A stretch of DNA of 64,000 nucleotides from Nitrosospira multiformis (GTDB lineage Bacteria > Pseudomonadota > Gammaproteobacteria > Burkholderiales > Nitrosomonadaceae): assembly GCF_003050865.1 (NCBI RefSeq), contig NZ_QAOK01000012.1, positions 28,833 to 92,832 on the forward strand, written 5' to 3'. The notes beneath the pieces are model-generated. The model searched no databases and had not been told where the DNA came from. It worked only from the letters and a program-made list of their open reading frames with translations. Every line of letters begins with the position of its first letter. Within the stretch, counting starts at the first letter, position 1. Below are positions 12,454 through 56,778 of the stretch, piece by piece. The position numbers were made by a program, and so were the translations under genes.

Positions 12454-12757
12454 GAAGCTGGCCAGGCAGTCGCTGCCTGTCCTCGATGACGAGGGCAGGG
12501 AGAGGAAAGTCCGGGCTCCGCAGAGCAGGATGCCGGTTAACGGCCGGCCGCCGTAAGGCGAGGAACAGGGCCACAGAGACGAGCGTATTAAGTTACGGTG
12601 AAACGCGGTAACCTCCATCCGGAGCAAGACCAAATAGGCAGGCGATGATGCTGCTCGCTGAGCCTGCGGGTAGGTTGCTTGAGCGTGCGGGTGACTGCAC
12701 GCCTAGAGGAATGACTGTCCTTGACAGAACCCGGCTTATCGGCCAGCTTCTTCTCTT
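12454..12757 (+). ncRNA. rnpB: RNase P RNA, bacterial class A
   Basis: Catalytic RNA that matures tRNA 5' ends. The 5' end GAAGCTGGCCAGGCAGTCGC pairs with the 3' segment TTATCGGCCAGCTTC. The universally conserved blocks are present in order: GAGGAAAGTCCGGGCTCC, ACAGAGA, GGTAACCTCC, GGAGCAAGACCAAATAGG, GGGTAGG and GAATGACTG, ending in GACAGAACCCGGCTTATCGG. The RNA is about 300 nt, shorter than the E. coli form (377 nt). The missing length lies between ACAGAGA and GGTAACCTCC, the P12-P14 part of the specificity domain. The exact 3' end is uncertain by a few bases. Confidence 0.95.
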
Positions 12758-24595: not shown

Positions 24596-24672
24596 CGGGG
24601 TGTAGCGTAGCCTGGTAGCGCGCCTGGTTTGGGACCAGGATGTCGGGAGTTCAAATCTCTCCACCCCGACCA
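24596..24672 (+). tRNA. tRNA-Pro (anticodon TGG)
   Basis: 77-nt cloverleaf with encoded CCA. Acceptor stem CGGGGTG pairs with CACCCCG; the anticodon stem CCTGG/CCAGG holds loop TTTGGGA, giving anticodon TGG. The T-arm has GTTCAAATC. Confidence 0.95.
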
Positions 24673-24707
24673 TTCATGCTAATTCGAGGCGAAATCCGAT
24701 TTGAGTG

Positions 24708-24784
24708 GTGCCCGTAGCTCAACCGGATAGAGCACCAGCCTTCTAAGCTGGGGGTTACAGGTTCGATTCCTGTCGGGCACGCCA
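24708..24784 (+). tRNA. tRNA-Arg (anticodon TCT)
   Basis: 77-nt cloverleaf with encoded CCA. Acceptor GTGCCCG pairs with CGGGCAC; anticodon stem CCAGC/GCTGG with loop CTTCTAA gives TCT, which reads AGA and AGG. Confidence 0.95.
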
Positions 24785-24848
24785 CAAGCTACCTCTCATC
24801 GTAGCCTTGCGGCAGGTTTCGGAATTGTGTATTGCGATTTTCTCGGAT

Positions 24849-24924
24849 GGTGGCTGTAGCTCAGTGGTAGAGTCCCGGATTGTGATTCCGGTTGTCGTGG
24901 GTTCGATCCCCATCAGCCACCCCA
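24849..24924 (+). tRNA. tRNA-His (anticodon GTG)
   Basis: 76-nt cloverleaf with encoded CCA. Acceptor GTGGCTG pairs with CAGCCAC, with the extra 5' G (24849) that is the histidine identity element. Anticodon stem CCGGA/TCCGG holds loop TTGTGAT. Confidence 0.95.
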
Positions 24925-28312: not shown

Positions 28313-29635
28313 ATGAAAAAAAGATTGCCGTTAAATCTTTCCCTTGGTCGCCGTCGTTGGATCGCAGTAATTGCTCCTTTATTAGGTTTTTTTTTGTTGG
28401 ATGCGCAACAGGTAATGGCTCAACAGTCGATACCGCATCCCCCTAGGATGGTTCCCGACAAGACTTTCAGTGTGACCGCAGGCACCACGTTTACGTACGA
28501 CAGCAATGTCTTTCGTTTGTCTTCCCTTGTTGACCCGGTTGCTTTTACCGGCCAACCACGTAGAGCCGATCAGATCATTATCACGTCTGCAACTCTGGGG
28601 TTTAATAAAAGATATTCCATGCAACGCTTCGAGGTAACCGGCACCTTGATTGATAATCGTTACATGAACTTTGATTTTCTTGATTTTCTCGGAAAAAATT
28701 ACAGCGCGGCCTGGTATTGGTATGTAACCCCTTATCTGTATGGCAGATTGACTAGCCGTCACAGTGAAGCGCTTAACAATTTTGCAAACCTCTCCGGTTT
28801 TGTGAATGCTACGAACCGCAACCTGCGCACCAATGACAACTATCATTTCGACGGGGTTCTTGAGCTTAACAGGGCTTGGCATCTCATTGGGGGCCTGGAC
28901 CATAGCGTCATGAAGAACAGCCGCCTGACCATTCAGGATTTTAATAATAAGGTTTCCTCGGTGGAGGGGGGAATACGCTATGTCTCAAGTTCCGGTGGCT
29001 CGCTTACTTACAAAGTGAGAAGCGGGCGCGGAGAGTTCATCGATCGACCGGAGCCCCGTGCCGACGTTCTCTTTGATACCCGTTTCGATGAAATGGAGCA
29101 CGAGCTCCGCATGCGTTGGCCCATCACGGTCAAGACCTCCATAGAGGGACGAGTTGGCTACCTCGATCGTCAGCATGCTCATTTTCCCCAGCGCGACTTC
29201 GCCGGCTTCGTGGGCGATCTCAATATAAGTTGGATGCCGACCAGCAAAGTGCAAGTGGTGGGGGGATGGTCCAGACAATTATCCAATTATCAGACTGCAC
29301 CATTTGCCTTTCAGCATTCTATCTTTGAGCGTTTCTCGAGTAGTTACATTGCCACCAATCGCTTCTCGATTGCCCCGACGTGGCAAATCACGGAAAAGAC
29401 TGCATTGCGGGTGCGCTATGATTATGTTCTAAGTGATTTTCATGGCGCTGTTATTCCCCTTCCTACAGAGAGTCGGAGCGATCAAATGCATTCCGGTTTG
29501 GTTGCTCTTGATTGGCGGCCACTTAACACACTCTATTTAAGCGCCGCTTTTCATCGGGATCATCGCAGTTCCAACCATCGCGGCTTTGATTTTGACAGCA
29601 CCGCAGGAAGTGTTTCGGCCACGCTTAATTTCTGA
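28313..29635 (+). CDS. epsL: outer-membrane beta-barrel EpsL, exosortase-B-associated polysaccharide transporter
   Basis: Predicted outer-membrane protein of 440 residues. A signal peptide (ends near QVMAQQ) is followed by repeated amphipathic strands with alternating aromatic residues, and the final residues SVSATLNF have the C-terminal phenylalanine signature of barrel insertion. It fits the EpsL family found only with exosortase B loci and thought to export the polysaccharide. It lies 129 bp after epsB. Confidence 0.78.
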   Translation: MKKRLPLNLSLGRRRWIAVIAPLLGFFLLDAQQVMAQQSIPHPPRMVPDKTFSVTAGTTFTYDSNVFRLSSLVDPVAFTGQPRRADQIIITSATLGFNKRYSMQRFEVTGTLIDNRYMNFDFLDFLGKNYSAAWYWYVTPYLYGRLTSRHSEALNNFANLSGFVNATNRNLRTNDNYHFDGVLELNRAWHLIGGLDHSVMKNSRLTIQDFNNKVSSVEGGIRYVSSSGGSLTYKVRSGRGEFIDRPEPRADVLFDTRFDEMEHELRMRWPITVKTSIEGRVGYLDRQHAHFPQRDFAGFVGDLNISWMPTSKVQVVGGWSRQLSNYQTAPFAFQHSIFERFSSSYIATNRFSIAPTWQITEKTALRVRYDYVLSDFHGAVIPLPTESRSDQMHSGLVALDWRPLNTLYLSAAFHRDHRSSNHRGFDFDSTAGSVSATLNF

Positions 29636-29896
29636 TGATCAAGCAACCATGTTTCGCTATTATTACTACTGAGGAGTGGGGAGAAGGTGATTTACAATGA
29701 GAGTCTGATAGTACGAACGGACTATTGCGGCCAAATACCACCTCGGCTACCGTGGTTGTCAAGTACCTGAATTACACGACCGTATTGATGAGAATCTGTA
29801 CTGACGGGAAGTTTAAAATACTTGAAACACCGAATTGTTTTAAATTATTTGTCCTATTCTTTAACCGAAAGCCAATGGCTCAACAAATTTGATCAT

Positions 29897-30868
29897 ATGA
29901 AAATGAATCGTCAGAAATTCATAACGCCACTATTACTCCCGTTGCTTGCTTTAGGATTCGTGGCCTGCGACAAAAAAGAATCACAACAACCGGCCAGTCA
30001 GGTAGCGGCCAAAGTAAATTCCGGCGAAATCTCCGTGCATCAGCTCAATTATGTTCTGGCTAGAGCTACGCGCAATAGCGCAAGTTCTCCGGAAAACGCA
30101 TCCAGAATTCGGCAGGAAGTTCTTGACCGCCTGGTCGATCAGGAGCTTGCGGTAGAACAGGCTATCAATAAAAAACTTGACCGTTCACCGGAGGTTCTCA
30201 TGGCCCTGGATAACGCTCGTAGAGAGATTCTTGCACGTGCCTATCTCGAGCAGATCACTGCGGCCACCCCAAAGCCAACCGTCGAAGAAGCAGAAACCTA
30301 CTATTCGGAGCATCCTCAGCTTTTCGCGGAACGCCGCATTTATAACATACAGGAAATTGTCCTTCCTTCATCAGCCGGTATCACGGACGAACTGCGGCAA
30401 ATGCTCGACTCGGGCAAGCCCATGGAAGACATTGCAAAGTGGCTGAAAGGCAAGGAGATAAAGTTTGCCGCTGGCAGCGCAACACGTTCTGCCGAGCAGA
30501 TTCCTCTCGAGCTCCTGCCCAAGATACATCCACTGAAACCCGGCCAGGGCTTGCTCATCCAGGGTCCGCAATCGATTACCCTCATGCGCATTGCCGCCGC
30601 ACAAACAGTGCCGATTACCGAAGCAGCGGCGTTACCGCGTATCCAGCAGTTTCTTGGAAATCAGCGTGCAACAGAAGCTGCGAGGGGGGAAATAAAAGCT
30701 CTCAAGGCAAAAGCCAATATCACCTATATGGGCGAATTCGCTGCTCCGGATAAAAATGTATCCGGCGGAGAACATTCCGCTCCGTCAGTCGCCAGTACTA
30801 CGGATACGAATTCACCGCAAGTCGATAATACCGGCCTTGAAAAGGGTGCGGCTGGTTTGTTGAGATAA
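29897..30868 (+). CDS. epsD: EpsD-family peptidyl-prolyl cis-trans isomerase lipoprotein
   Basis: Periplasmic SurA-like protein of 323 residues; the family is tied to exosortase-linked polysaccharide loci. The ATG at 29897 gives a short signal peptide with lipobox FVAC and Cys24. An N-terminal chaperone domain (LDRLVDQELAVEQAINKKLD) precedes a weakly conserved parvulin region near residues 125-235. A TTG at 29822 would put the signal peptide too far inside. The 3' end lies 28 bp before epsE. The 261-bp gap before this start holds no gene. Confidence 0.8.
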   Translation: MKMNRQKFITPLLLPLLALGFVACDKKESQQPASQVAAKVNSGEISVHQLNYVLARATRNSASSPENASRIRQEVLDRLVDQELAVEQAINKKLDRSPEVLMALDNARREILARAYLEQITAATPKPTVEEAETYYSEHPQLFAERRIYNIQEIVLPSSAGITDELRQMLDSGKPMEDIAKWLKGKEIKFAAGSATRSAEQIPLELLPKIHPLKPGQGLLIQGPQSITLMRIAAAQTVPITEAAALPRIQQFLGNQRATEAARGEIKALKAKANITYMGEFAAPDKNVSGGEHSAPSVASTTDTNSPQVDNTGLEKGAAGLLR

Positions 30869-30896
30869 CGCAATTATCAAGAGGAAGTTCGACAAT

Positions 30897-31691
30897 ATGT
30901 TCCAAATTTTGGTTCGTACCTTGATCCTTTTATCAATGTTGTCTTCGGCTAAGGCTTTTGCCGAGAGCCCTGACTACCCGCTGGGTCCGGGTGATATCCT
31001 GCGCGTTCAGGTTTTTCAAAACCCCGACCTTACTACTGAAACCCGAGTTTCCGAAAGTGGTTCCATCACGTTTCCACTGGTTGGCGCTCTCGAGGTCGGA
31101 GGGCTTTCTGTTGCTTCTGCCGAAAATAAGCTTGCAGCCGCCCTTAAAAAGGGTGGTTTCATAAAGCAACCCCAGGTAACCATTGTCCTCCTGCAGATGC
31201 GAGGCAATCAGGTGAGTGTGCTTGGCCAGGTCAACCGGCCGGGCCGTTTTCCCTTGGAAACACTCAGCAGGGTGAGTGATATGCTAGCTGCCGCCGGTGG
31301 TACTACCGCGCTTGGTGATGACTACGCCATTGTTACCGGTACACGCAACGGACAGGCCTTCCGAAAGGTGATCGATATTCCTGCTCTCTATCTGGACGAA
31401 AGATCAGAGGAGGATATCATTCTTGCCGGAGGGGATACGATTTATGTCCATCGCGCGCCGGTTTTTTACATTTATGGGGAGGCGCAACGACCTGGGGCCT
31501 ATCGTATCGAACGGGGCATGACTGTTATGCAGGCCTTGGCTCAGGGTGGCGGTCCTACTCCCCGAGGTAGCGAATGGTGGCTGCGTCTTCATCGGAGAAA
31601 CGCGGAAGGAGTCGTAGAGAAGCTTTCACCCGAAATGACCGACGCTGTCCAGCCCAATGACATAATCTATGTGCGTGAAAGCATTTTCTGA
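30897..31691 (+). CDS. epsE: polysaccharide export protein EpsE (Wza-like)
   Basis: Outer-membrane polysaccharide export protein of 264 residues. It has a signal peptide (cleavage near AKAFA-E), the polysaccharide-export domain starting YPLGPGDILRVQVFQNPDL, and two SLBB domains (VSVLGQVNRPGRFPLE and FYIYGEAQRPGAYRIERG). There is no clear lipobox. A good ribosome-binding site (GAGGAAG) precedes the ATG. Next to EpsF and EpsG it forms the Wza-Wzz-Wzc-type trans-envelope set. Confidence 0.88.
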   Translation: MFQILVRTLILLSMLSSAKAFAESPDYPLGPGDILRVQVFQNPDLTTETRVSESGSITFPLVGALEVGGLSVASAENKLAAALKKGGFIKQPQVTIVLLQMRGNQVSVLGQVNRPGRFPLETLSRVSDMLAAAGGTTALGDDYAIVTGTRNGQAFRKVIDIPALYLDERSEEDIILAGGDTIYVHRAPVFYIYGEAQRPGAYRIERGMTVMQALAQGGGPTPRGSEWWLRLHRRNAEGVVEKLSPEMTDAVQPNDIIYVRESIF

Positions 31692-31703
31692 CGCTGACAT
31701 AAT

Positions 31704-33092
31704 ATGACCTTTCATCAATTCCTGCTTATCCTTCGAGCGCGTCACAAAGTGGTGTTCTTCACTTTGCTGTTTGTCGTTCTAGCGACACTCCTGGTCAGCT
31801 TGCTGCTGCCGAAGCAATATACAGCAACTGCCGCAGTAGTGGTGGATATCAAATCCCCTGATCCGGTCGCCGGCATGGTTCTGCCGGCTTTGGCTGCTCC
31901 TGCATACATGGCCACCCAGGTCGACATCATTAATAGCGACCGTGTAGCCCGACGTGTTGTGAAAATGCTGCGAATGGATGAGAACCCGCTTATCAAAGAG
32001 CAATGGGTCGAGGATGGTGAAAAGGGCGATCTCGTAGCCGGGTTGGCAGACTTGCTTAAACAGAAACTGGACGTTAAACCGTCACGCGAAAGCAACGTCA
32101 TACAAATAGAGTACACCGGAAACGAACCAAACTTTGCGGCAGCTGTTGCAAACGCCTTCGCTCAGGCATATATCGACGTCAACCTCGATCTGAAAGTTGC
32201 TCCCGCTCGCCAATATGCCGAGTGGTTTAAAGATCAGACCCGGGCGATGCGTGACAGACTCGAGAAAGCCAAGGGAGCGCTCTCGGCTTATCAGCAGAAT
32301 ACCGGTCTGGTTGGTACCGATGAACGTCTTGATTATGAAATTGCGAAGCTCAACGATCTTTCTACCCAACTTACCCTCATCCAGGCACAGACATCCGACA
32401 GCAGCAGCAAACGGAAAGGGAGAGAGGATCCGGAAACGTTAGCGGAGGTAATCCAGAATCCGCTCGTAAATGGTCTCAAGGCAGACATTGCCCGGCTCGA
32501 GGCCAAACTTCAGGAAGCCAGTGTTAACCTCGGAGCAAATCACCCCCAGACGAAGCGCTCTCAGACCGAACTCGCATCGCTAAGGAACAAGTTGGCAGCT
32601 GAGATAAGCAAAATACACGGCAGTATTGGTACATCCTATGAGGTGGGGAAGAGAAAAGAAGAAGAATTGCTGGAAGCAATGGAGAAGCAGAAAGAGCGGG
32701 TGCTTGAACTCAACAGGCAACGTGACCAGTTGAGTGTTCTTAAGGGCGATGTCGAAGCCGCCCAGCGTGATTTCGAGGGCGTGAGCCAACGCTCGGCTCT
32801 AACCCGGCTCGAGAGCCTCTCAGTGCAAACCAACATTGCCACACTAAATCCCGCTACGATACCGATAAGCCACTCCAAGCCCAAGATACTGCTCAATATG
32901 TTGATTGCTACTTTTCTTGGCACGCTGCTCGGTGTCGGAGTAGCTTTGATGCTGGAAATCATGAATCGCCGGGTGCGCTCTGCGGATGATTTACTTGAGG
33001 TTATGGAGGTACCCGTCCTCGCAGTTCTATCAGGCCCACCTCGAAAACTTCCCAAGCGGATTCCGAAGCTACTCAAAGCGGAATCGAGCTGA
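31704..33092 (+). CDS. epsF: chain-length determinant protein EpsF (Wzz/PCP family)
   Basis: Inner-membrane polysaccharide co-polymerase of 462 residues. It has a first membrane helix at about 17-37, a long periplasmic part with coiled-coil stretches (DRLEKAKGALSAYQQNTGL; KRKEEELLEAMEKQKERVLE), and a second helix at about 395-420 preceded by the proline-rich NPATIPISHSKPK segment typical of Wzz proteins. The kinase domain is not fused but is encoded next door (epsG). Confidence 0.88.
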   Translation: MTFHQFLLILRARHKVVFFTLLFVVLATLLVSLLLPKQYTATAAVVVDIKSPDPVAGMVLPALAAPAYMATQVDIINSDRVARRVVKMLRMDENPLIKEQWVEDGEKGDLVAGLADLLKQKLDVKPSRESNVIQIEYTGNEPNFAAAVANAFAQAYIDVNLDLKVAPARQYAEWFKDQTRAMRDRLEKAKGALSAYQQNTGLVGTDERLDYEIAKLNDLSTQLTLIQAQTSDSSSKRKGREDPETLAEVIQNPLVNGLKADIARLEAKLQEASVNLGANHPQTKRSQTELASLRNKLAAEISKIHGSIGTSYEVGKRKEEELLEAMEKQKERVLELNRQRDQLSVLKGDVEAAQRDFEGVSQRSALTRLESLSVQTNIATLNPATIPISHSKPKILLNMLIATFLGTLLGVGVALMLEIMNRRVRSADDLLEVMEVPVLAVLSGPPRKLPKRIPKLLKAESS

Positions 33093-33114
33093 TATCTCAA
33101 ACGGAAATTAAGCC

Positions 33115-34044
33115 ATGAATCCTGTCAGCGCAAGTCTACCCACTATTAAACGCAGTCATACCTCAAACCCGCGGGAACCATTCCTGACCGGACGAACCCA
33201 AACTGTGGGGAACGGCAGTTCGATTGGAGCGATTCTCATAGGTGCGGGGAGGTTATCCGAAGAAAATATAAGCCGCATATTGGAGGTCCAGGCGGAGCAG
33301 GGGCAACGCTTTGGAGAAGTTGCCGTTAACCTCGGTTTTCTTACGGAGGATGATGTACGTTTTGCTCTCTCTCGTCAGTTTAACAATCTCTATCTCCCCG
33401 CAGGAGACGAGAGTCTCAGTCATCATTTACTCGCGGCCTACAAGCCATTCAGTCCTGTCGTTGAGCACCTGCGGGGTCTGCGTAGCCAACTTATGCTACG
33501 CTGGTTTCATCCTGATGCTGATCAGAACGTGCTTGCCATCGTAAGCCCGGGTGCTGGCGAAGGCCGCAGCTTTATAGCTGCGAATCTGGCCATTATTTTT
33601 TCGCAGTTGGGCAAGAGCACCCTCCTTATTGACGCAAATCTTCGTGCCCCTCGTCAACAGGAGTTTTTTAAGACACGTGCCGGAACGGGTTTATCCGGCT
33701 TTCTCGCAGGCCGGGGTGGCCTGGATTGTATTATCAGGATTCCATCATTACTCGGGCTTTCCCTATTGCCAGCGGGTGCAGTGCCGCCAAACCCGCAGGA
33801 ACTGATCGGCCGTCCCGTTTTCTCTAATTTATTGCAATCGCTCGGTGCTGAGTTCGATATTGTTATTTTGGATACACCGGCAGCAGGCGCATATGCAGAA
33901 GCGCAAATCATAGCAACCGAAGCTTCCACTGCTTTGATCGTAGTTCGCAAAGACCATACACCGGTATCGCGAGCAGCCGAACTTGCGGGGCGCTTCCAGC
34001 AGACAGGTGTTTCAATGGTGGGATCAGTGTTGAATGAATTCTGA
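33115..34044 (+). CDS. epsG: EpsG, BY-kinase-like ATPase partner of EpsF, with MshE-type N-terminal domain
   Basis: Protein of 309 residues. Residues about 35-95 resemble the MshE/GspE N-terminal domain (ILIGAGRLSEENISRILEVQ), a fold that in some proteins binds c-di-GMP. The rest is a ParA/BY-kinase domain with Walker A-like SPGAGEGRSFIAANLA, A' motif TLLIDANLRAPRQQ and Walker B VILDTPAA. The usual Walker A lysine is Arg151 (GEGRS), and the tail has no tyrosine cluster, so kinase activity is doubtful. It sits 22 bp after epsF. It would be expected to work with EpsF in chain-length control. Confidence 0.83.
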   Translation: MNPVSASLPTIKRSHTSNPREPFLTGRTQTVGNGSSIGAILIGAGRLSEENISRILEVQAEQGQRFGEVAVNLGFLTEDDVRFALSRQFNNLYLPAGDESLSHHLLAAYKPFSPVVEHLRGLRSQLMLRWFHPDADQNVLAIVSPGAGEGRSFIAANLAIIFSQLGKSTLLIDANLRAPRQQEFFKTRAGTGLSGFLAGRGGLDCIIRIPSLLGLSLLPAGAVPPNPQELIGRPVFSNLLQSLGAEFDIVILDTPAAGAYAEAQIIATEASTALIVVRKDHTPVSRAAELAGRFQQTGVSMVGSVLNEF

Positions 34045-34273
34045 TAATTAAAGCACTGATATGCACTTGGTAGTACTACGATAACTGAGCGCGACTCTAA
34101 TTCAATGGAGGGTCCGTAAACGTAAAAACTGCGTCGGAACGCGTGGCGCTGGTATCTATTCGAAGATTGATCTCGAATTCACGAAAAAAGAACGGTTTGG
34201 GGTAATCTATTCAAGCAAAATCCCAGCATTAGCGACATCTCTCTAGTGCAAAAGATGCGAAATAATCCGCAAG

Positions 34274-35188
34274 ATGGCTATTAATTCTTCAATTATCTTA
34301 ACTAAAAAGAACCTGCTTGGGGGATCGCGTGACCCTCTGCTCTTGTGGCTGCCTATCATTATCGGGTTAACCGTACTTTATCTACCTAGCCTGGTTGACC
34401 TATTTCGAGGTATCTGGTCTACTGATCAGCAAGCTCATGGCCCGATTGTTCTCAGCATCGCCTGTTGGCTTATTTACCGGAAGTGGCCACTAATGTGGCA
34501 ACGAAGTGCGAACCAGTCCTCGGCCCCTGCCGGGTGGCTGATCTTTATAATTGGACTAGTGCTCTACGTCATCGGGCGCTCTCAAGAAATCCTATTGCTC
34601 GAGATAGGCTCGGTAATCTGGCTGCTTGCCTCTATCCTCTTGCTTGTGTGTGGAACAACTGCGCTCAGGATGCAGTGGTTTCCGCTCTTTTTCATGTTAT
34701 TCATGATTCCTCTTCCGTCGGCTCTCGTTGATGCCGTGACAATGCCGATGAAAATGGCAGTTTCCTATGTGGCGGAAACTATTCTTTTCTGGTTCAACTA
34801 TCCTATCGCCCGTACCGGCGTTATCCTGCAAATCGGGCAATACAAGCTACTCGTCGCCGATGCGTGTGCCGGGCTGCACACCCTCTTTACACTCGAAGCA
34901 CTGGGACTGCTCTACCTTAATCTGATTCGTCACGACTCGTTATTCAGAAATATCGCCTTGGCAATTTTTATTGTTCCGATATCCTTTACCGCCAACGTTA
35001 TTCGCGTAATGGTATTAACGCTTATCACTTATCATTTTGGGGACGAGGCTGGCCAGGGCTTCTTACACGGATTTGCGGGTATGGTACTTTTCCTTAGTGC
35101 CCTGCTTCTGATCATAGGTACCGATTCCCTGCTACAACTGCTGGTCAAGCTGCGGGGTGTTCGGAGTAGCGCGTTAGGCGAAGCATGA
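34274..35188 (+). CDS. xrtB: exosortase B
   Basis: Polytopic inner-membrane cysteine transpeptidase of 304 residues that processes PEP-CTERM proteins. The catalytic triad is visible: Cys198 in VADACAGLHTLF, Arg244 in TANVIRVMVL and His265 in LHGFAGMVLF. About eight membrane helices surround these residues. The gene belongs to the B subfamily by its neighbours (EpsL, EpsI, EpsA). It is preceded by a 229-bp gap without a gene and is followed immediately by epsI. Its likely substrate in this window is the PEP-CTERM protein at 62932. Confidence 0.88.
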   Translation: MAINSSIILTKKNLLGGSRDPLLLWLPIIIGLTVLYLPSLVDLFRGIWSTDQQAHGPIVLSIACWLIYRKWPLMWQRSANQSSAPAGWLIFIIGLVLYVIGRSQEILLLEIGSVIWLLASILLLVCGTTALRMQWFPLFFMLFMIPLPSALVDAVTMPMKMAVSYVAETILFWFNYPIARTGVILQIGQYKLLVADACAGLHTLFTLEALGLLYLNLIRHDSLFRNIALAIFIVPISFTANVIRVMVLTLITYHFGDEAGQGFLHGFAGMVLFLSALLLIIGTDSLLQLLVKLRGVRSSALGEA

Positions 35189-42216: not shown

Positions 42217-43302
42217 ATGACAAAGAAAGCATTGATTACAGGTGTAACAGGACAGGACGGCGCATATCTTGCGGAATTTCTCCTAAACAAAGGATATGAA
42301 GTACATGGAATAAAGAGGCGCAGTTCGCTTTTTAATAGCGCGCGTATCGATCATTTATTTCACGATATGCACGAAAAAGGAGACGCCTTTTATTTACACC
42401 ATGGTGACATGACAGACTCCTCAAGTCTGACGCACATCATTCAGAAAATACAGCCGGATGAAATATACAACCTCGCAGCACAAAGTCATGTCGCTGTTTC
42501 ATTTGAAGAGCCGGAGTACACGGCCAACTCCGACGCACTTGGTGCATTACGCGTTCTTGAAGCAATTCGTATTTTGGGATTAACCCAAAAGACGCGTTTT
42601 TATCAGGCTTCAACCTCTGAGCTTTACGGATTGGTTCAAGAGATTCCTCAAAAAGAAACCACGCCATTTTACCCCCGCAGCCCTTATGCGGTGGCCAAGC
42701 TCTATGCCTACTGGATCACCGTCAACTATCGCGAGGCCTACGGCATCTACGCCTGCAACGGTATCCTGTTCAACCACGAAAGCCCGATCCGAGGTGAAAC
42801 TTTTGTCACCCGCAAGATAACCCGCGCCTTGGCACGCATCAAACTTGGGCTGCAAGAGTGCTTGTATCTGGGAAATCTAAGTGCTAAGCGAGATTGGGGC
42901 CATGCCAAGGATTATGTCGAAATGCAATGGTTGATGCTGCAACAAGATAAACCTGAGGATTTTGTCATCGCCACTGGGGTTCAATACAGTGTGCGTGATT
43001 TCGTCAACGCTGCAGCAAAAGAGCTTGGCATGAGCATTACCTGGAAGGGTGATGGTGTTGACGAGAAAGGCTACGACAAAGCCGGTAAGTGTCTCGTTGC
43101 AGTTGATCCGCGTTATTTCCGTCCCACCGAAGTTGAAACGTTACTTGGCGATGCTAGCAAAGCAAAAAATAAACTAGCGTGGACACCCAAGATCAGCTTT
43201 GATGAGCTCGTTAGCGAGATGGTACGCGAAGATCTTAAAAGCGCTCAGCGTGACGAAATAGTGAAAAAACACGGTTACGCTGCGTTCATCCCAAACGAAT
43301 AA
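42217..43302 (+). CDS. gmd: GDP-mannose 4,6-dehydratase
   Basis: Extended SDR of 361 residues that converts GDP-D-mannose to GDP-4-keto-6-deoxy-D-mannose. Features are the NADP-binding motif [16 protein letters not shown], the RRSS segment ([19 protein letters not shown]), the STSELYG motif and the catalytic [10 protein letters not shown]. It opens the gmd-colC-colD set. The GDP-mannose it needs must come from the intact manC further downstream or elsewhere, because the adjacent manC copy is broken. Confidence 0.94.
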
Positions 43303-43385
43303 TAGGGGTAATAGGATAAACAAAATGCGAATTCTTCTCTCAGGAATAATAGGGGTAATAGGATGAACAAAATGCGAATTCTTCT
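43297..43385 (+). repeat. 42-bp direct repeat duplicating the colC translation start region
   Basis: Two copies of a 42-bp unit (43297-43338 and 43344-43385) differ at a single base and are separated by 5 bp (period 47 bp). Each contains AATAATAGGGGTAATAGGAT and the beginning of the reading frame, ATGCGAATTCTTCT. The first copy carries the gmd stop and a decoy ATG that reaches a stop after about 13 codons; in it the upstream ATGAAC of the real gene reads ATAAAC. Confidence 0.9.
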
Positions 43386-44295
43386 AACAGGAGGTGGCGG
43401 TATGGTCGGGCGCAATCTGCTCGAACATCCGGACATTGGCGAATTTGAGATGCTCGCTCCGCGCAGCAGTGAACTAGATCTACGGGACTACAAAGCTGTT
43501 GAGCGCTATCTGAACACACATCAACCGGACATGGTGATTCACTCCGCCGGTAAAGTCGGCGGCATCCAGGCAAACATGCGCGAGCCTGTAGCTTTCTTAC
43601 TGGAAAACCTCGACATTGGACGTAACATTGTTTGGGCTTCACGACAAGCGGGGATAAAGCGCCTAATTAACCTGGGTAGCTCCTGCATGTACCCGCGGAA
43701 CCACAATGAGCCCTTGCGCGAAGAATTAGTACTCAAAGGTGAATTCGAGCCGACAAACGAGGGATATGCTCTCGCAAAAGTCGTTACAGCACGGCTATGC
43801 GAATATATAACTCGGGAAAATGCCGATTATCAATACAAGTCATTGATTCCATGCAATATTTACGGCAAGCATGACAAATTCGATCCAGTCCACTCACACC
43901 TGATTCCAGCAATCATTTACAAAGTGCATTTAGCCAAACAAAGGGGTGATGAAACCGTGGAAATCTGGGGAGATGGCACTGCACGTCGAGAATTCATGTA
44001 TGCAGGGGACTTGGCAGATGCACTCGTACAGGCTGTAAAAAGATTTGATTCCATGCCTGCCCTCATGAACATAGGTCTCGGGCATGACTGCTCCATCAAT
44101 GAGTATTACCAAGCCGCTGCAGATGTAATGAATTATTCAGGTTCATTTGTACACGACTTAAGCAAACCTGTTGGCATGACGCGCAAACTGGTTAGCGTAG
44201 AACGCCAACAGGAATGGGGATGGCATGCCAAGCAGAAATTAAAGACTGGTATCAGAGAAACATATCAATTTTTTTTGATGGAGAAATTTCAATGA
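43363..44295 (+). CDS. colC: GDP-L-colitose synthase / GDP-L-fucose synthase family epimerase-reductase
   Basis: Extended SDR of 310 residues with the NADP motif LLTGGGGMVGRNLLEH, the catalytic GSSCMYPRNH and Tyr-Lys in YALAKV. The family contains both Fcl (WcaG), which makes GDP-L-fucose, and ColC, which makes GDP-L-colitose. The next gene is a ColD-type 3-dehydratase, and the stop/start overlap (ATGA) couples the two. I therefore favour ColC, whose substrate is the ColD product. Fcl activity remains possible. Starts at 43363 (MNKMRIL) or 43372 are both plausible. Confidence 0.75.
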   Translation: MNKMRILLTGGGGMVGRNLLEHPDIGEFEMLAPRSSELDLRDYKAVERYLNTHQPDMVIHSAGKVGGIQANMREPVAFLLENLDIGRNIVWASRQAGIKRLINLGSSCMYPRNHNEPLREELVLKGEFEPTNEGYALAKVVTARLCEYITRENADYQYKSLIPCNIYGKHDKFDPVHSHLIPAIIYKVHLAKQRGDETVEIWGDGTARREFMYAGDLADALVQAVKRFDSMPALMNIGLGHDCSINEYYQAAADVMNYSGSFVHDLSKPVGMTRKLVSVERQQEWGWHAKQKLKTGIRETYQFFLMEKFQ

Positions 44296-47126: not shown

Positions 47127-47601
47127 TATTATCAACCCAGAATCTAGCAAATCTTTTCTTATAACCGCGGGCCTGCGACGGCTCATAAAGGAGGGTATCA
47201 CTGGCGAAAAAAGAGCTTGTATTTGTCTTCAAGGTTCAAGTTGTTCCCGCCTCACTTTGGAGATTCGATCTGCTCGATGTTCCCTCAACACATTCCCAAC
47301 CTGATCAGTGTTCGCTTGAGGTGCCGACAACTTTAAAAAAGATTACGAGCAGTATGAGTCCTGCCAGTTATTCCGCCTGTGGAAGCAGGGGAGTGTTGAG
47401 GGGAGAAATTCTCTAGAAGCACTGATGTGGTGAGAGCCGGGATGCAATGTCAGATGATGTGTAATATTCGGGATGAGCACTTGTTCAAGACTACTATGCT
47501 CAAGATCTCCCGAGGGGAGAAGAATACAAGCAATCAGCCAAATGATCGGGAGCGAACTTTAAACAAGAGTTCTTTTAGGACGATGAACGGTGGAGGTTGA
47601 G
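47127..47601. other. intergenic region before the glycoside hydrolase
   Basis: 475 bp without a recognisable gene, repeat or RNA. A good ribosome-binding site (GGAGG) for the next gene lies at its right end, at 47592-47596. Confidence 0.5.
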
Positions 47602-48882
47602 ATGATGAAGGTTCTAAGTGCTTTATTGATGATAAGCTCGATAACCATTCCGTCTGCACTTGAGGCTGCTGCGGAAATCAATCAGCCTATTCCTAAAGAA
47701 TACTTTGGCTTGCATATTCAGAATACCGGAAAAGCCCCCTACTGGAATCCCAGCGCTGCCAAGACACCTTGGCCTTCCGTCAAATTCGGCTCATGGCGCT
47801 TATGGGATGCTTATGTGGGTTGGCCAAGCCTTGAGCCGTCCAAAGGTAAATGGGATTTTGAACTTTTGGACAAGTACGTAGCTTTAGCAGAAAATGCTGG
47901 GGTTGAGCTTTTGTTGCCTTTGGGTTTGTCCCCCGCTTGGGCGTCAGCTCGCCCCACTGAACCTTCCAACTATCGTCCGGGTAACGCCGCCGAACCTTCC
48001 GATCTTCAGGATTGGCGCACGTATGTACATACCGTTGCTACACGCTACAAGGGGCGAATCAAAAATTACGAGCTTTGGAACGAGGTGAACCTGCCCGGAT
48101 TCTACTCAGGAAGTAAAGATAAGCTGGTAGAACTGGCACGTGAAGCTTATAGAACACTCAAGGAGGTAGACCCTGATATTGTTTTCGTATCTCCTTCAGT
48201 AACTGGAGGTCAACCTGCTTACATCTGGCTAGACGAGTATTTTGCCAAAGGCGGAGCGTCGTATCTGGACGTCGTGGGTAGTCATTTCTATGCACCCACG
48301 CATCCCCCTGAAGCCATGCTACCGCTTATTAAGCAGGCACAGGCCGTGATGGCGAAGCATGGCCTTGATCAGAAGCCCCTCTGGAATACGGAAGCAGGCT
48401 GGCAGATGGAGAGCAGACAGAAAAAAAAGGTGCCGCTTGGCTTGATAGAGCAAAAATGGAAGAAGCTGGATGATAGGGGGGGCGCGGCCTATGTGGCACG
48501 AGCCCTAGTATTGAACTGGGTTAGGGGCGTTTCCCGTTTCTATTGGTATTCCTGGGATAATGTCCATATGGGATTGATAGAACTTGACACTTTTAAGCTG
48601 AAGCCTGCTGCTGCCGCTTATGACAGGATGGCTAGGCTACTTGCTGGAGGAATACTGAAAGACTGCAGTCAGAGCAAGTCCATATGGACTTGCTCTATTA
48701 CTCAAGCGGATGGTAAGCGACTATGGATGGTATGGACAGAAGACGATAACGCGCAGGATTGGCAGGTACCGGGAGAATGGAATATCAATCGGGTCGAAGC
48801 CCTTGATGGAGGTACGCTCGAGATAAAGAACAGTTTTGTTCGGATTGGTCCCGACCCTATCTTCTTATCAATAAAAAAGTAG
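47602..48882 (+). CDS. secreted glycoside hydrolase, clan-A TIM barrel (GH39-like)
   Basis: Exported protein of about 426 residues with a signal peptide (cleavage near ALEAAAE). The catalytic acid/base is Glu161 in YELWNEVN and the likely nucleophile is Glu264 in WNTEAGW, the two-glutamate pattern of clan GH-A. The strand segments VVGSHFYAPTHPP and WYSWDNVHMG are also typical. GH39, GH5 and related groups share these features, so the substrate is uncertain. Its placement in the locus suggests it trims or degrades the polysaccharide in the periplasm or outside. The start is 47602 or 47605 after GGAGG; a GTG at 47590 overlaps the ribosome-binding site. Confidence 0.78.
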   Translation: MMKVLSALLMISSITIPSALEAAAEINQPIPKEYFGLHIQNTGKAPYWNPSAAKTPWPSVKFGSWRLWDAYVGWPSLEPSKGKWDFELLDKYVALAENAGVELLLPLGLSPAWASARPTEPSNYRPGNAAEPSDLQDWRTYVHTVATRYKGRIKNYELWNEVNLPGFYSGSKDKLVELAREAYRTLKEVDPDIVFVSPSVTGGQPAYIWLDEYFAKGGASYLDVVGSHFYAPTHPPEAMLPLIKQAQAVMAKHGLDQKPLWNTEAGWQMESRQKKKVPLGLIEQKWKKLDDRGGAAYVARALVLNWVRGVSRFYWYSWDNVHMGLIELDTFKLKPAAAAYDRMARLLAGGILKDCSQSKSIWTCSITQADGKRLWMVWTEDDNAQDWQVPGEWNINRVEALDGGTLEIKNSFVRIGPDPIFLSIKK

Positions 48883-50031: not shown

Positions 50032-53000
50032 TTAATCATCTAACGCGCAGCCCTGTGCGTTAACTGCCTTGTTTTGCTGAGTATTGGGACAAACATCTTC
50101 CACACTTGCTACACCGTCACCGTCTTCATCCTGAAGGGAGATATCACGGGTATAAGCAGGCTCCCCCGATAGTGGCTCAACGGAAGATGACCAATTTACC
50201 AGTTGCCCATCCTTTAAATGAACGAACTTGCCACAGAGGTCCGCTGCTTCATCTTCCTGCGCGCAGGGCACCGTTTCCTTTTGTTTAGAGGAGTTGAGGC
50301 GAAGCCAAAGCTGCAACGCGGCTTCCGACCGCCTGACGGGAACTGCTTCTATTTTTCCAATCATCAAAGAGGTTCCTGGCTGGACGCCGCCAAAATCAGC
50401 GCGCGCCCCAGATTCGCCCGTAGCGGGATCATTGGCAATAACTGTTTTTGCCGCCCGGAACAAGAATGAATACCGGCGCCAAGCTGGAGTAATTGAGAAC
50501 GTCTCGGCTGCCGGCATCAGCAGTTCATAAGGCGCAGTTCCCCCCCCACCGCGGAGAACCACTACATTTATGGGTTGATCTGAGCCTGTAGTGGCAGCAT
50601 CGAAGGTGACACGATACCATTGTTCTCCGATTACAGAAAAATTGGGTGAAGAGAGCGACGCGGGGGCGCTGTTAGCAGTGATTTGCAGGCATGGCCCAAA
50701 GCTGCAGCTGAGGATTTGAGTTTGAGGACGAGATGCCGTTTTAGTCCACCACGTCCACCCCTGACTACTACCATTTCCAAAATCTCCGTTCGGGATGATA
50801 TTGGATCCAATGGAAAGGAAAGCTGCGTAACCCGCCGGTTCAGTGCCTTGAGGTCCCTCCTCCCGGCCTTTTAGTTGCCATTCAGAGACAGTATAACCCC
50901 CACTGCCACCAGGCCAGAGCTCACTGATGGCACGGGGAGAGATCAACGTGGAATAATAGTTATTGTGGAATGTGGCAAAGTCGGCTGTATCTCCAATTTC
51001 TGATTCCATCACTATACTCGGTCCGCCGACCGTGGGTACGAAGGTATTTGACTCGATCCTGTTTTCAAAAATGTCGCCACTGGAACGTATGCTTGTCGTT
51101 CGTTCCTGCAACCAGAGCTGGTAGCGGCGATTTCCAAAGAAGAGATTGTCAGCGACTATGGAGCGACTTGCATTATGGATTTGAAGGCCATACTCTGCAT
51201 TGGTGACTGTATTTCGCCGTACCTCATGCCCGGTACCCACTTCGTCGAGATAAATTCCAACCGCGTGGTTAGGCCATCCTTCAGGTAGACCGTTTAAGTC
51301 CCCTACCACTGTCTCCACCACGTTTCCTATGATAGAGGAGTTATTGCCCCAGTTATTTGTATAAATGCCGCTACAATCATTAAACCGAAGGCAGGAATAT
51401 CCAAAATAATTATCCTTAATAACAGAATTCAAACCGGCAAAAACACCGTTATTTGCCGAGTTCAGAACCTTGTTGCCTAAAATTTTGCCGTTGGCATTTA
51501 CGTCTATGGATGCCTTGGCAGGTCCACGTGTCAGTCGCCGCCAGCCATCAGTTCTACGGCCACCGCCTGAGTTGATAATGCTGCTATCCGAAATACTGAA
51601 TCCCGTAGCTCCCTCCAATGCCCTTATCGCTTCGAGTCCAGTATTGGTAATACTGCTGCTTTCAACAGCACAGGAGCTGGAACGATCAGCTTCAACACCT
51701 TGAGAATCGAGCTCAGACAGTACCATGTATTTTAAATTTACTGACCTGGCCCGGTTCAACCGCACGCCCGTTGTCACATGCCGTATCGCCAGTCCAGCGA
51801 CATCAATATAAGCTTTGGAACTGAAGTCTCCTCCAACCGGAAGGGAGTTGATGGAAACTCGGCCGCCTGGAGCGGAATCATCCGGCATCCATATGTATAA
51901 GTCCCCTGTGGAAGAATCAAAGTGCCATTCTCCTGGCGAATCAACCATCCATAATGCCCCCGTTAAAAAGTAGCCGTATCCAGGTTTTATCGAGTATGTA
52001 GTCGGCTTATCAAGCGTCAGTTTGCTTCCTGATACAGAAGCAACTCGACGTTCTTCCAATATCCACGGTGCTGTACGGATGGATACGTTAAGTCCGGATG
52101 TGAGGCTTCCATCATTCGGTAGTTCGAGGTTTCGTGTATCAAGTGTTGTTTTTCCACCGTCTGAAGCGATGGGGGCATAAGCTGAGTCTGGATTCGTATC
52201 TTTCCAGCCAAAATTAGGATGATGTGCCCTGCGGACAGCGGCTCCGTCTACGAACACTTCGTTTACGCCCTCAAACGGTAGCATGCGTCGGACACTCACC
52301 TCCCGCAGGTAGATTTTGACCTTTCCCCCCGGCTCTTCAATATCCAGACGAGCTTTGGGAGTCGACGAGGAGGCGCGAAAGGTAAGTTTCATGGTTTGCC
52401 ATACCCCTGATGCTGTCATGGACTGGTCAGGTGCAAGAGATTCATAGCTTGAGCCAGCGCGGCGAATGGCAAAGCGAAGACGTGTTCCTGCTGGCGCTTT
52501 GACGCGCAGGCTCGCAGAATAATTTACCCCTCCTGCAACCGCGAAGCTGCTACTGATTGCAACGCTCGGAGAGGTGCCGGACATGAACGCGAGACAAGGT
52601 TCCGATAAGCCGCTGCAGTCCGTATCCAGGCCTATTGAAGCGTCATTGCGGGCGGACCAGATGTTCCACCCGTTGATACCTTCGCTGAAGGCAGTGTTAG
52701 CAATATGCTCGACTGGCAGGCGAGCCCGATAGATGTGCCCTGCATGTTGTTTCCACATATGCGGGGGAATCGTTACGGCACCGTCAATAGTAGGACGGAC
52801 ATCGCATTGGCCCGGTCCCGCGGAAATGACAACAGGCGCTGTTGCAGTACCTGAGGACGCGATGCGAAGCGTTTCATTCCAGACAGAACCGCAAGCGAGG
52901 TAAACAGTGTCGCCGGGAAGCAGAGACGCGCTGGCAAGTCTACCCAACGTCTGCCAGGGGCCATCCTTTGACGAGCCACTGGCAACAGGCTGTTTGCCAG

Positions 53001-53199
53001 TCGAAGAATCATCACCGAGCTCGGAATTAATGTAGTATGTAGTTGCGAAAACGGAGGGAAGGAATCCCAGGAAACAGACAAGGAAGGCACCGATTGCCTT
53101 GATGTTGAAAGTTGCTCTGGAAGCCGCTACCTTTAAGATTTTAGCTGTCGATTGCGCCCTTGAACGGGTGGTTTCTTGTCCTTTCTCGTAAATTTGCAT
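50032..53199 (-). CDS. large secreted right-handed beta-helix protein with carbohydrate-binding-like domains
   Basis: Exported protein of 1055 residues. A long N-region (about 50 residues) ends in a signal peptide (FLVCFLGFLPSVFA). Residues about 160-310 and 770-960 look like CBM4_9-type jelly rolls (NTAFSEGINGWNIW; IIPNGDFGNGSSQGWTWW). Between them lies a long parallel beta-helix with repeated short Asn/Gly/Ile strands (NGVFAGLNSVIKDNYFGYS, GLQIHNASRSIVADNLFFGN). The C-terminus has thrombospondin type-3 calcium repeats (DEDGDGVASVEDVCP). Polysaccharide lyases and epimerases use such folds, but catalytic residues cannot be assigned. It is encoded opposite to all neighbours and has a c-di-GMP riboswitch in its leader. 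The ATG follows GGGAG by about 9 bases. Confidence 0.82.
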   Translation of the reverse strand: MQIYEKGQETTRSRAQSTAKILKVAASRATFNIKAIGAFLVCFLGFLPSVFATTYYINSELGDDSSTGKQPVASGSSKDGPWQTLGRLASASLLPGDTVYLACGSVWNETLRIASSGTATAPVVISAGPGQCDVRPTIDGAVTIPPHMWKQHAGHIYRARLPVEHIANTAFSEGINGWNIWSARNDASIGLDTDCSGLSEPCLAFMSGTSPSVAISSSFAVAGGVNYSASLRVKAPAGTRLRFAIRRAGSSYESLAPDQSMTASGVWQTMKLTFRASSSTPKARLDIEEPGGKVKIYLREVSVRRMLPFEGVNEVFVDGAAVRRAHHPNFGWKDTNPDSAYAPIASDGGKTTLDTRNLELPNDGSLTSGLNVSIRTAPWILEERRVASVSGSKLTLDKPTTYSIKPGYGYFLTGALWMVDSPGEWHFDSSTGDLYIWMPDDSAPGGRVSINSLPVGGDFSSKAYIDVAGLAIRHVTTGVRLNRARSVNLKYMVLSELDSQGVEADRSSSCAVESSSITNTGLEAIRALEGATGFSISDSSIINSGGGRRTDGWRRLTRGPAKASIDVNANGKILGNKVLNSANNGVFAGLNSVIKDNYFGYSCLRFNDCSGIYTNNWGNNSSIIGNVVETVVGDLNGLPEGWPNHAVGIYLDEVGTGHEVRRNTVTNAEYGLQIHNASRSIVADNLFFGNRRYQLWLQERTTSIRSSGDIFENRIESNTFVPTVGGPSIVMESEIGDTADFATFHNNYYSTLISPRAISELWPGGSGGYTVSEWQLKGREEGPQGTEPAGYAAFLSIGSNIIPNGDFGNGSSQGWTWWTKTASRPQTQILSCSFGPCLQITANSAPASLSSPNFSVIGEQWYRVTFDAATTGSDQPINVVVLRGGGGTAPYELLMPAAETFSITPAWRRYSFLFRAAKTVIANDPATGESGARADFGGVQPGTSLMIGKIEAVPVRRSEAALQLWLRLNSSKQKETVPCAQEDEAADLCGKFVHLKDGQLVNWSSSVEPLSGEPAYTRDISLQDEDGDGVASVEDVCPNTQQNKAVNAQGCALDD

Positions 53200-53201: not shown

Positions 53202-53255
53202 TGCAGTTCTCCCTTTTTGTGATTCAGGCGAAACTGCAGGAGACAGCGCTCTCCC
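53202..53255 (-). promoter_or_regulatory. expression platform that can mask the ribosome-binding site
   Basis: On the minus strand, GGGAGA (53255-53250) can pair with TCTCC (53243-53239), forming a local hairpin. TCTCC can instead pair with the ribosome-binding site GGGAGA (53213-53208). TGCAGTT (53238-53232) can pair with AACTGCA (53208-53202), also closing over the site. These mutually exclusive pairings fit translational switching by the upstream aptamer. Confidence 0.5.
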
Positions 53256-53289
53256 TTCCGAGGAAATATTTTCTACCTGGTAGAGTGAG

Positions 53290-53385
53290 CCGTACTTCTG
53301 GCAGTCTCGCTATCCTGGGGCTTAGCCCTTTAGACCGATGACTTTGCGTCCCACGCTTTCGCATGGTTTGCCTTTTACAAATTCT
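53290..53385 (-). promoter_or_regulatory. cyclic di-GMP-I (GEMM-I) riboswitch aptamer
   Basis: Read on the minus strand, the diagnostic GEMM-I core is present. GGCAAACC (53372-53365) opens a perfect 6-bp stem CCATGC/GCGTGG capped by a GAAA tetraloop (53366-53351). It is followed by GACGCAAAG (53350-53342) and then CGGTCTAAAGG and the second stem-loop, with AGGATAGCGAGACTGCC as its 3' side (to about 53297). This is the conserved layout of the c-di-GMP-I aptamer, including the tetraloop that docks into the second helix. The outer P1 helix is not clear, so the borders are approximate. It lies about 100 bases before the beta-helix gene start. Confidence 0.85.
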
Positions 53386-53621
53386 TCAGATGAGAATTTT
53401 AGCTCAGGGAGCAGGAATGAAGAGAACAAATAGAATTGTAAACGTCCTGCTTTTCTTGCTAATGGAGATTAGACTACCTACAATATCGCCTTGAGTATAA
53501 AAATATTAGTTTTATCAGTGCCTTATAATTGTTTTATGTAATGTAGTCTCCTCAAGTAAACATCGAATTTTAATCTTTGGAGTTCGCCATAAACGTCTTT
53601 GTTGCCGGGTGGAATATAACG

Positions 53622-55397: not shown

Positions 55398-55758
55398 TTG
55401 CTGCTAAAAAATAATCCGCGATGAGCATGGCAGACCAGCGGCAGGCCCTTCAGGTTGAAAATGTTCTGTATCATATGAACTCCACCCGATTGCTTAATAG
55501 CGCATTTTTGCGAGTATTTATCAGGAATCTTGAAATCGACGTCAGTATATTGCTTCCAGTAGCGTGTCATCTAAAAGGGTTAATATAAAATAAAAGAAGA
55601 CATTCTTATTCCTGATTTCCGCTCGCGCAAATCTTATGCAAATAGGATTTTACGCTGCGGGTTTTTTTCTTAATGCCAGAGAGAAAATTTCTTGTTTCGT
55701 TTGTCTCCGTGATAAAGGACGCGAAGCATTTCCTATTAATAACTTGGAGTTTCTAAAA
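55398..55758. other. intergenic region
   Basis: 361 bp with nothing I can support. An in-frame upstream ATG at 55636 would extend the next gene by 41 residues that look unlike a methyltransferase N-terminus. Confidence 0.4.
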
Positions 55759-56778
55759 ATGCCAGCCGGCCTAAAAAGTGTTGTAAATAATTTTTTAATT
55801 AAGAGTGGCTACAGCGTTAAGCGCATTAGGGAACACGAATTAAAGTATTTTCTAAGCAGTTACGATAAGAGTCGTGAACTGCCCCTCGGAGCACAATCTT
55901 TTCTGAATTCCGAAAATCCACGCTTGCAATCTCTCCGAGCTGCTTATCGTGGTCTACAGTTACCGGTGCTGCAACATACTGTCTGGAGGGAGCAACAACT
56001 TGATCGTCAACTCTCTTTGGCTTGGTTTCGCGGCGATAATCTGTACGTCTGGCAGTATCGCCAGCTTAAAAGTGATGCACGTCTTCGCTTTTATCTTGCT
56101 GTACTGGATGTCGAGAATAGAGACAAGCTGGGTTTGCTTGAACGGCTGAAGGAAGACGGATTATTTGGATGTTGGACCTTTTCTTTTACGGGGCGCACTG
56201 ACCTTTTAAGCCGGGATCTTCTGGATTCAGTAAACGAAATAAATTACCTCGATGAGCATCTCCATCTTTCTGAACGCAGCGAATTTAAAGTTCTTGATAT
56301 AGGGGCTGGCTACGGACGTTTTGCACACAGGATGTGTGAGGCTTTTCCAAACTTGAGTGCGTATGACTGTATAGATGCTGTTCCGGAGTCTACATTCCTT
56401 TGTGACTATTATCTCCAATTCAGAGGAATCGGGGATCGCGCCCGTTCTGTCCCATTGACTGAATATCAAACATTGAGTCAACGTTACGATTTGGCAGTCA
56501 ATATCCATAGCTTTTCCGAATGTTCTTATGTCGCTGTACGCTGGTGGCTGGAGCAGATTCGGAGCCGGGAGATAGAGTGGTTACTGATAGTGCCGAACGA
56601 CCCCACCGAACTGTTGACCACCGAAGCTGACGGAACGAAGAAAGAATTCCTGTCTGATGTACTTAATTGCGGCTATGAGTTATGGGATCGAAGGCCGGCA
56701 TACATGAATCCGGATCTTCGTGAATTCATCGGGGTTAATGACCATTTTTTCCTCTTCCGGAGGAAAGTTGCCATCTAG
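55759..56778 (+). CDS. putative sugar O-methyltransferase
   Basis: SAM-dependent methyltransferase of about 339 residues. Motif I is VLDIGAGYGRFAHRM near residue 180, followed by YDCIDAVPES and NIHSFSECSY. The pattern matches putative sugar O-methyltransferases in polysaccharide clusters, which decorate a sugar hydroxyl. A GGAG lies about 10 bases before the ATG at 55759; the longer frame from 55636 is less likely. The gene is the last intact one before the IS debris. Confidence 0.72.
   Translation: MPAGLKSVVNNFLIKSGYSVKRIREHELKYFLSSYDKSRELPLGAQSFLNSENPRLQSLRAAYRGLQLPVLQHTVWREQQLDRQLSLAWFRGDNLYVWQYRQLKSDARLRFYLAVLDVENRDKLGLLERLKEDGLFGCWTFSFTGRTDLLSRDLLDSVNEINYLDEHLHLSERSEFKVLDIGAGYGRFAHRMCEAFPNLSAYDCIDAVPESTFLCDYYLQFRGIGDRARSVPLTEYQTLSQRYDLAVNIHSFSECSYVAVRWWLEQIRSREIEWLLIVPNDPTELLTTEADGTKKEFLSDVLNCGYELWDRRPAYMNPDLREFIGVNDHFFLFRRKVAI

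Follow-up and report, generated by a model that had tools for sequence, protein, structure and literature searches.

Background

Class I cyclic di-GMP (c-di-GMP) riboswitches, also known as GEMM-I, provide the closest described parallels to an element that we analyzed in Nitrosospira multiformis. The window, a 64,000-nucleotide (nt) stretch of contig NZ_QAOK01000012.1, carries on its minus strand a GEMM-I aptamer in the leader of a gene for a 1055-residue beta-helix protein, set among genes for exopolysaccharide (eps) synthesis with the exosortase XrtB. The Vibrio cholerae riboswitch Vc2, called a translational OFF switch in a passage of one paper, belongs to the same aptamer family and has the same selectivity base; for the window, control through access to the ribosome-binding site is predicted. 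Its targets differ from the window's.

Two further systems bear on the target. For zmpI/PPEP-1 of C. difficile, published passages describe a class I OFF riboswitch that represses, at high c-di-GMP, a secreted enzyme releasing the cell's own surface adhesins; we regard it as the precedent for a switch that would free matrix-degrading enzymes at low c-di-GMP. The likeness lies in a class I aptamer repressing a secreted enzyme at high c-di-GMP. However, PPEP-1 is a metalloprotease and the class I switches are described as transcription-terminating, whereas the window has a glycosidase-like protein under predicted translational control. RbmB, a Vibrio polysaccharide lyase, is needed for dispersal according to the passages that treat it, so a matrix polysaccharide enzyme can be needed for this step. 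Unlike the glycosidase-like window protein RbmB is a lyase, and those same passages make no mention of riboswitch control.

We hold with moderate confidence that c-di-GMP represses translation of the likely secreted beta-helix protein, and that this protein likely hydrolyzes the polysaccharide of the surrounding XrtB eps locus. Among the literature matches listed, titles and abstract openings linked no c-di-GMP riboswitch to these targets in ammonia oxidizers; most subscription journals lay outside that search, and the result is weak evidence of novelty.

The aptamer and its target gene

The riboswitch is ordinary in kind and, by its sequence, securely identified. Two features define the element:

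53297..53382, minus strand: c-di-GMP-I (GEMM-I) aptamer, model positions 1-87, found by cmscan with RF01051
50032..53199, minus strand: target gene, encoding a 1055-residue protein with a hydrophobic N-terminal stretch, a right-handed beta-helix, a CBM4/9-like domain and a C-terminal DxDxDG-type repeat

The RF01051 covariance model matched 53382-53297 at full length (85.2 bits, E 2.2e-15; gathering score 35). The aptamer spans the interval from 183 to 97 nt before the ATG at 53199, from which a frame runs open over 1055 codons to 50032. A first-pass annotation, made from the letters alone, had proposed this riboswitch class, c-di-GMP as ligand, this target gene and a polysaccharide setting, and each is borne out, the ligand by sequence; it had given no direction of control. 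The aptamer motifs that it quoted (GGCAAACC, the CCATGC-GAAA-GCGTGG stem-loop and GACGCAAAG) are all present in the leader.

In the source genome 14 GGDEF matches pass the cut-off, as do 15 of the 16 EAL matches. It holds three GEMM-I aptamers: that of the window, one before an S8 protease (locus L002) and a GGC-variant before a PEP-CTERM protein (L003). It also carries an ammonia monooxygenase gene, followed by a reading frame that we take to be amoB.

Predicted alternative helices in the window leader

Folding predictions place two mutually exclusive helices and one constant helix between the aptamer and the start codon. The segments involved are:

53301..53310, minus strand: aptamer 3' strand GCGAGACUGC, a possible anti-anti-Shine-Dalgarno in the free minimum-energy structure; it includes model position 83
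53226..53238, minus strand: anti-Shine-Dalgarno (anti-SD) strand UGCAGUUUCGCCU, partner of the aptamer 3' strand when free and of the Shine-Dalgarno (SD) strand when locked
53202..53214, minus strand: SD segment AGGGAGAACUGCA, with core GGGAG at 53213-53209, 9 nt before the ATG, predicted to be covered when locked
53376..53384, minus strand: 5' flank and first aptamer bases, in a predicted helix with the start codon and the codons after it (53198-53190) whether the aptamer is locked or not
53435..53462, minus strand: weak candidate for a promoter of the sigma-70 type (TTAGCA-16-TACAAT), some 50 nt before the aptamer, from a consensus scan that gave two matches on both strands against 0.7 expected

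In the predicted free minimum-energy structure, 53310-53301 (GCGAGACUGC) pairs with 53237-53228 (GCAGUUUCGC) and the SD is left free. In the locked structure the anti-SD strand instead covers the SD, through 53238-53231 with 53209-53202 and 53228-53226 with 53214-53212. The helix of 53384-53376 with 53198-53190 lies over the start codon in both. The first-pass annotation had counted three alternative pairings, two of them masking the translation start. Our structures give the same count, with one pairing that leaves the SD free, one that covers it and one that covers the start codon; they need not be the same three.

Locking the aptamer is predicted to close the ribosome-binding site almost completely. 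For the SD core AAAGG the open probability drops from 0.30 to 0.0002, and opening it comes to cost 5.4 instead of 0.7 kcal/mol. The best duplex of the window linker with the aptamer 3' strand has -17.4 kcal/mol, matched by 0 of 200 shuffles, and a scan for intrinsic terminators found none in the window leader. Model position 83, within the aptamer 3' strand, is presumably the ligand-contact C equivalent to C92 of Vc2. Helices that would expose or hide the SD in mutual exclusion, tied to the aptamer fold, are one mark of a translational OFF riboswitch, and prediction and comparison both point to them here.

The proposed mechanism follows the order of transcription. Without ligand, the aptamer 3' strand (53310-53301) would take the anti-SD strand (53237-53228) before the SD is transcribed. 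Bound c-di-GMP would keep that 3' strand within P3 and the ligand pocket, leaving the anti-SD strand to fold onto the ribosome-binding site, and masking of that site would keep the beta-helix protein off at high c-di-GMP. Dispersal would then be favored when c-di-GMP drops and the presumed matrix-degrading enzyme is released. The exit of nitrifiers from biofilms is relevant to soils and wastewater plants.

The start codon complicates this mechanism. Folding runs covered 3 to 40 nt of coding sequence, with and without P1 imposed; from 10 to 40 nt the predicted open chance of the start codon is 0.006-0.011 in all states, P1 imposed included. In the free state the SD core is open at about 0.2-0.3; for the start codon the figure is about 0.01, free or locked. 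The SD (GGGAG) and start codon are jointly open at about 0.001 without ligand and <0.00001 when locked. The predicted direction remains OFF, but the free state is predicted to be poorly translated, unless ribosomes can open the start-codon helix or transcription proceeds without its forming. With this codon mostly closed, free or locked, our confidence in an OFF switch controlling a glycosidase is slightly lower, and an ON switch gains slightly.

A shared platform across leaders

Leaders from related genomes share one order: aptamer, anti-SD strand (GCAGUUUC, GCAGUUCC, GGCGGUUCC and similar), SD strand and start codon. We folded the 18 Nitrosospira leaders that precede beta-helix or S8 genes. 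Locking the aptamer raised the predicted cost of opening the SD in all 18, with the smallest rise (0.3) in L038, where the aptamer mapping is out of register. Locked folds give the anti-SD strand a probability of 0.65-1.00 of pairing with the SD in 17 of 18 leaders; L054, at 0.03, is the exception. In transcripts ending just before the SD, the anti-SD core pairs with the aptamer 3' strand in 18/18 (P 0.84-1.00), and in full-length free transcripts this pairing dominates (P >0.5) in only five, the window included. In the other leaders, where the aptamer-3'-strand pairing loses at full length, the switch would therefore have to act during transcription.

As a control, in 8 of the 18 leaders, each with 30 linker shuffles, the native rise was reached by 1 of 240. 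Swapping in three foreign GEMM-I aptamers (24 combinations) kept at least half the native rise in 14 and equaled or exceeded it in three (L035 and L036 with the aptamer of L031; L053 with that of L016, a tie). The platform therefore appears to use a strand conserved in the class and not to be matched to one particular aptamer. A weaker test, which let the aptamer 3' strand pair anywhere downstream, was matched by 52 of 1080 shuffles.

The pairing lies at a similar place in most leaders. A motif-free search in 43 leaders (the 18 from Nitrosospira and 25 others) looked for the linker site that pairs best with the aptamer 3' strand. In 37 this site is no more than 26 nt from the SD region; depending on the leader, 0 to 136 of 200 shuffles reach the energy of the duplex. 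A count anchored on GUU[CU] in 36 leaders (8 beta-helix, 10 S8, 18 from the sister genus) found standard pairs in 253/288 cells and in 250/252 at model positions 77-83, percentages that are overstated since the GUU[CU] and aptamer-3'-end anchors preset several letters; sliding the register by 1 to 3 gave 24-51%. Single-leader numbers are weaker in the motif-free search than in the anchored count, and the place is the same in 37/43. At position 77 the window has A-U and each of the 35 remaining leaders G-C; position 81 shows U-A or U-G, with C-G in L027. Each double change is confined to a single leader, and the leaders are related. The count left out L030, which has no anchor, along with L005, L016, L031, L032, L033 and the sister-genus leaders L024, L025 and L026.

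Outside Nitrosospira, the energy test covered 27 leaders of the sister genus and of other families, and 25 of them have a start codon with an SD. The cost rise exceeds 0.1 kcal/mol in 22 of the 25, all but L024, L025 and L027; these are energies of the native leaders.

Recurrence of the link

The link between aptamer and beta-helix gene recurs but is not exclusive. The protein is matched in 12 of 121 genomes, source genome included; 11 of the 12 are Nitrosospira, among 23 Nitrosospira genomes examined. An aptamer stands at 9 of the 12 loci, or 9 of 11 in Nitrosospira, and since L040 and L041 share one leader, these give eight distinct leaders. L038 scores 39.3 bits with RF03167, below that model's gathering score of 59, and 43.2 bits with RF01051, over the cut-off. 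Two Nitrosospira loci (L043, L044) and one from another family (L042) lack the aptamer, and a pattern search for platform and aptamer-end motifs found none there. The first-pass annotation had proposed a link of the riboswitch with this protein family; recurrence in 9 of the 11 Nitrosospira genomes with the gene upholds the link, although other genes share the aptamer.

A predicted secreted glycosidase

The beta-helix protein is best read as a GH141-like glycosidase, a prediction that draws on its fold and on aligned catalytic residues. The features concerned are:

52333..52707, minus strand: carbohydrate-binding module CBM_4_9, residues 165-289 (PF02018, 36.0 bits, cut-off 25.9)
51376..51378, minus strand: codon of Asp608, aligned with the GH141 catalytic Asp523 of BT1002 (HMMER profile alignment to 5mqp, numbering checked)
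51244..51246, minus strand: codon of Asp652, aligned with the GH141 catalytic Asp564 of BT1002 (HMMER profile alignment to 5mqp, numbering checked)

The protein has a parallel beta-helix fold like that of BT1002, and Asp608 and Asp652 are invariant in 48 sequences. The aspartate alignment comes from a weak local HMMER match (13.0 bits for the stretch) and is one of sequences. The profile match to 5mqp (E 4.4e-7) ranks behind 9rx2 (E 9.9e-15), and no GH141-named profile is among the protein's Pfam or NCBIfam matches. Compared with described GH141 members (the BT1002 fucosidase, the Xyn141E xylanase and the Wf141 endo-fucanases), the window protein has 18% identity in structural alignment, is longer, and adds the CBM4/9-like module and a C-terminal extension; its function is predicted from sequence and fold. 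Read by eye, the hydrophobic N-terminal stretch makes secretion likely and the C-terminal DxDxDG-type repeat would carry a calcium-repeat label.

An adhesin or other structural protein was also considered. The fold is compatible with it, but a hydrolase is favored by the top structural match and by the two invariant aspartates. The earlier proposal of a polysaccharide-active or adhesive role accordingly survives in its first half, as a prediction, and is disfavored in its second. A matrix hydrolase is the likeliest reading of fold, aligned residues and context, and from the locus we infer that the enzyme acts on the cell's own exopolysaccharide.

Other genes behind similar leaders

Similar leaders precede genes of several unrelated protein families. 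We assigned the targets of 58 GEMM-I loci, a best-scoring or chosen subset of all GEMM-I matches, by tblastn with queries from the same set. Nitrosospira loci precede 9 beta-helix, 10 S8 protease and 12 PEP-CTERM genes, the last with the GGC variant. Elsewhere the targets are 13 weakly GH35/42-like proteins, 6 concanavalin-like, 4 S8, 1 metzincin (a below-cut-off match to Mep72) and 3 DUF1631. Hydrolases or possible hydrolases make up 43 of the 58 and others 15; several domain names rest on matches below curated cut-offs, and 'concanavalin-like' is a by-eye reading. Several targets share an N-terminal M/V-x-x-N-x-Q just after the platform.

This set fits a switch that would release matrix-degrading enzymes when c-di-GMP falls. 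More tentatively, and falling somewhat short of what we would call probable, Nitrosospira and its sister genus may share a family-wide matrix-dismantling regulon. A portable leader (aptamer, anti-SD platform and first few codons) would stand before unrelated secreted proteins, namely the GH141-like glycosidase in its own EPS locus, S8 proteases, and GH35/42-like and concanavalin-like proteins. When c-di-GMP drops, all members of the dispersal set would start to be translated together, with RNA as the only regulator. If so, one leader design was recruited before several unrelated secreted proteins.

The non-hydrolase targets and leader variants show further arrangements. The GGC-variant aptamer (RF03167) precedes a PEP-CTERM protein in 12 Nitrosospira loci (L003, L057-L067). 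A hairpin followed by seven U is present in three of these leaders (L003, L064, L065), and the terminator scan of L003 found none by its own rule; the PEP-CTERM protein might be controlled in the sense opposite to the hydrolases. In other families of the order, c-di-GMP-I aptamers lie upstream of DUF1631 genes (L005, L032, L033). Tandem c-di-GMP-I aptamers about 240 nt apart precede one GH35/42-like gene in L011 (1258-1344 and 1501-1587) and L020 (1261-1347 and 1501-1587), the first aptamer in each being followed by its own platform and a very short open reading frame (ORF).

Direction of control and alternatives

We favor an OFF over an ON switch on predicted and comparative grounds. The chief alternative is an ON switch, in which c-di-GMP would promote a beta-helix protein that builds, modifies or tethers matrix, for example as an epimerase or adhesin. 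Passages on class I switches describe them as ON or OFF by context, AlgE-type epimerases and the adhesin PfbA are among the structural matches, and predicted pairing with the aptamer 5' flank covers the start codon, which a strong P1 could in principle free. We nonetheless consider an ON switch unlikely: imposing P1 leaves the window start codon closed (0.006 to 0.011), the SD becomes less open on locking in 18/18 leaders, both GH141 catalytic aspartates have invariant counterparts, and the co-targets include proteases and glycosidase-like proteins.

Less probable again is control mainly by Rho or by coupling, with c-di-GMP halting translation of a first leader ORF and transcription ending before the main gene. 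In five of the eight distinct beta-helix leaders (L035, L036, L037, L038, L045), the start codon under control belongs to a distinct ORF of 78-112 codons ahead of the beta-helix gene, and in L038 an ATGA overlap links the stop of that ORF to the beta-helix start; the window leader also lacks an intrinsic terminator by scan. In the window, however, as in L039 and L040/L041, controlled start and beta-helix gene form one frame. The controlled start being the gene's own, plain translational control suffices there.

That the aptamer senses cyclic GMP-AMP (cGAMP), as GEMM-Ib switches do, is very improbable: passages describe many Geobacter GEMM-I members as cGAMP-selective, but also report that a single A-to-G change at nucleotide 20 turns the cGAMP selectivity of a Geobacter GEMM-Ib switch into c-di-GMP selectivity, and the deciding position is G in the window and in 25 leaders from the sister genus and other families. 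That position is RF01051 model position 11, G at 53372, because the model's spacing matches that of Cd1, for which a published passage equates G11 with Vc2 G20 and places the tetraloop at A24-26. An A just before GGC, found also in several relatives, had suggested cGAMP and was set aside, the selectivity base being the G at position 11.

The surrounding eps locus

The predicted OFF switch sits within a polysaccharide locus that likely has a c-di-GMP input of its own. EpsL, EpsD, EpsE, EpsF, EpsG and XrtB lie at 28313-35188, all over NCBIfam cut-offs, as expected from the eps/exosortase setting first proposed. Sugar-nucleotide genes, glycosyltransferases and a WecG-type transferase follow downstream to 50018, and the beta-helix gene lies on the strand opposite to the eps genes. 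Three features stand out:

33115..34044, plus strand: EpsG chain-length kinase with an MshEN-type c-di-GMP-binding motif at residues 37-88 (TIGR03029, 429.4 bits; NF053729, 44.9 bits, cut-off 38)
34274..35188, plus strand: exosortase XrtB of the eps cluster (TIGR03113, 456.2 bits, cut-off 275)
42217..44295, plus strand: GDP-mannose 4,6-dehydratase and GDP-L-fucose-synthase-like gene (TIGR01472, 597.7 bits, over cut-off; NF047922, 308.5 bits, below its cut-off of 500)

The motif in EpsG suggests that the eps locus has, besides the riboswitch, a second, protein-level c-di-GMP input. If the proposed mechanism is true, c-di-GMP would be linked directly to an enzyme cutting the same cell's exopolysaccharide, within the locus that makes it; together with a likely c-di-GMP-binding EpsG, one signal would drive synthesis and restrain degradation. 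By its gene content, the polysaccharide may contain L-fucose or another GDP-6-deoxy sugar. It may also be O-methylated: a NanM-like putative sugar O-methyltransferase (55636-56778, plus strand; 57.0 bits, cut-off 44) lies close to the beta-helix gene.

Seven related loci have parts of this setting, with a WecG-like gene nearby in all seven, a UDP-GlcNAc 2-epimerase gene in six and XrtB within the extracted stretch in two. A GH39-like gene in the eps cluster (47590-48882, plus strand) is present in 4/7 (L068, L069, L073, L074) and shows weak similarity by BLAST (E 8e-4 to 0.03) to the GH35/42-like proteins that stand behind riboswitches in the sister genus.

Elsewhere in the window are an RNase P RNA (12454-12754, plus strand; 252.8 bits) and a tRNA-Pro/Arg/His cluster (24596-24924, plus strand).
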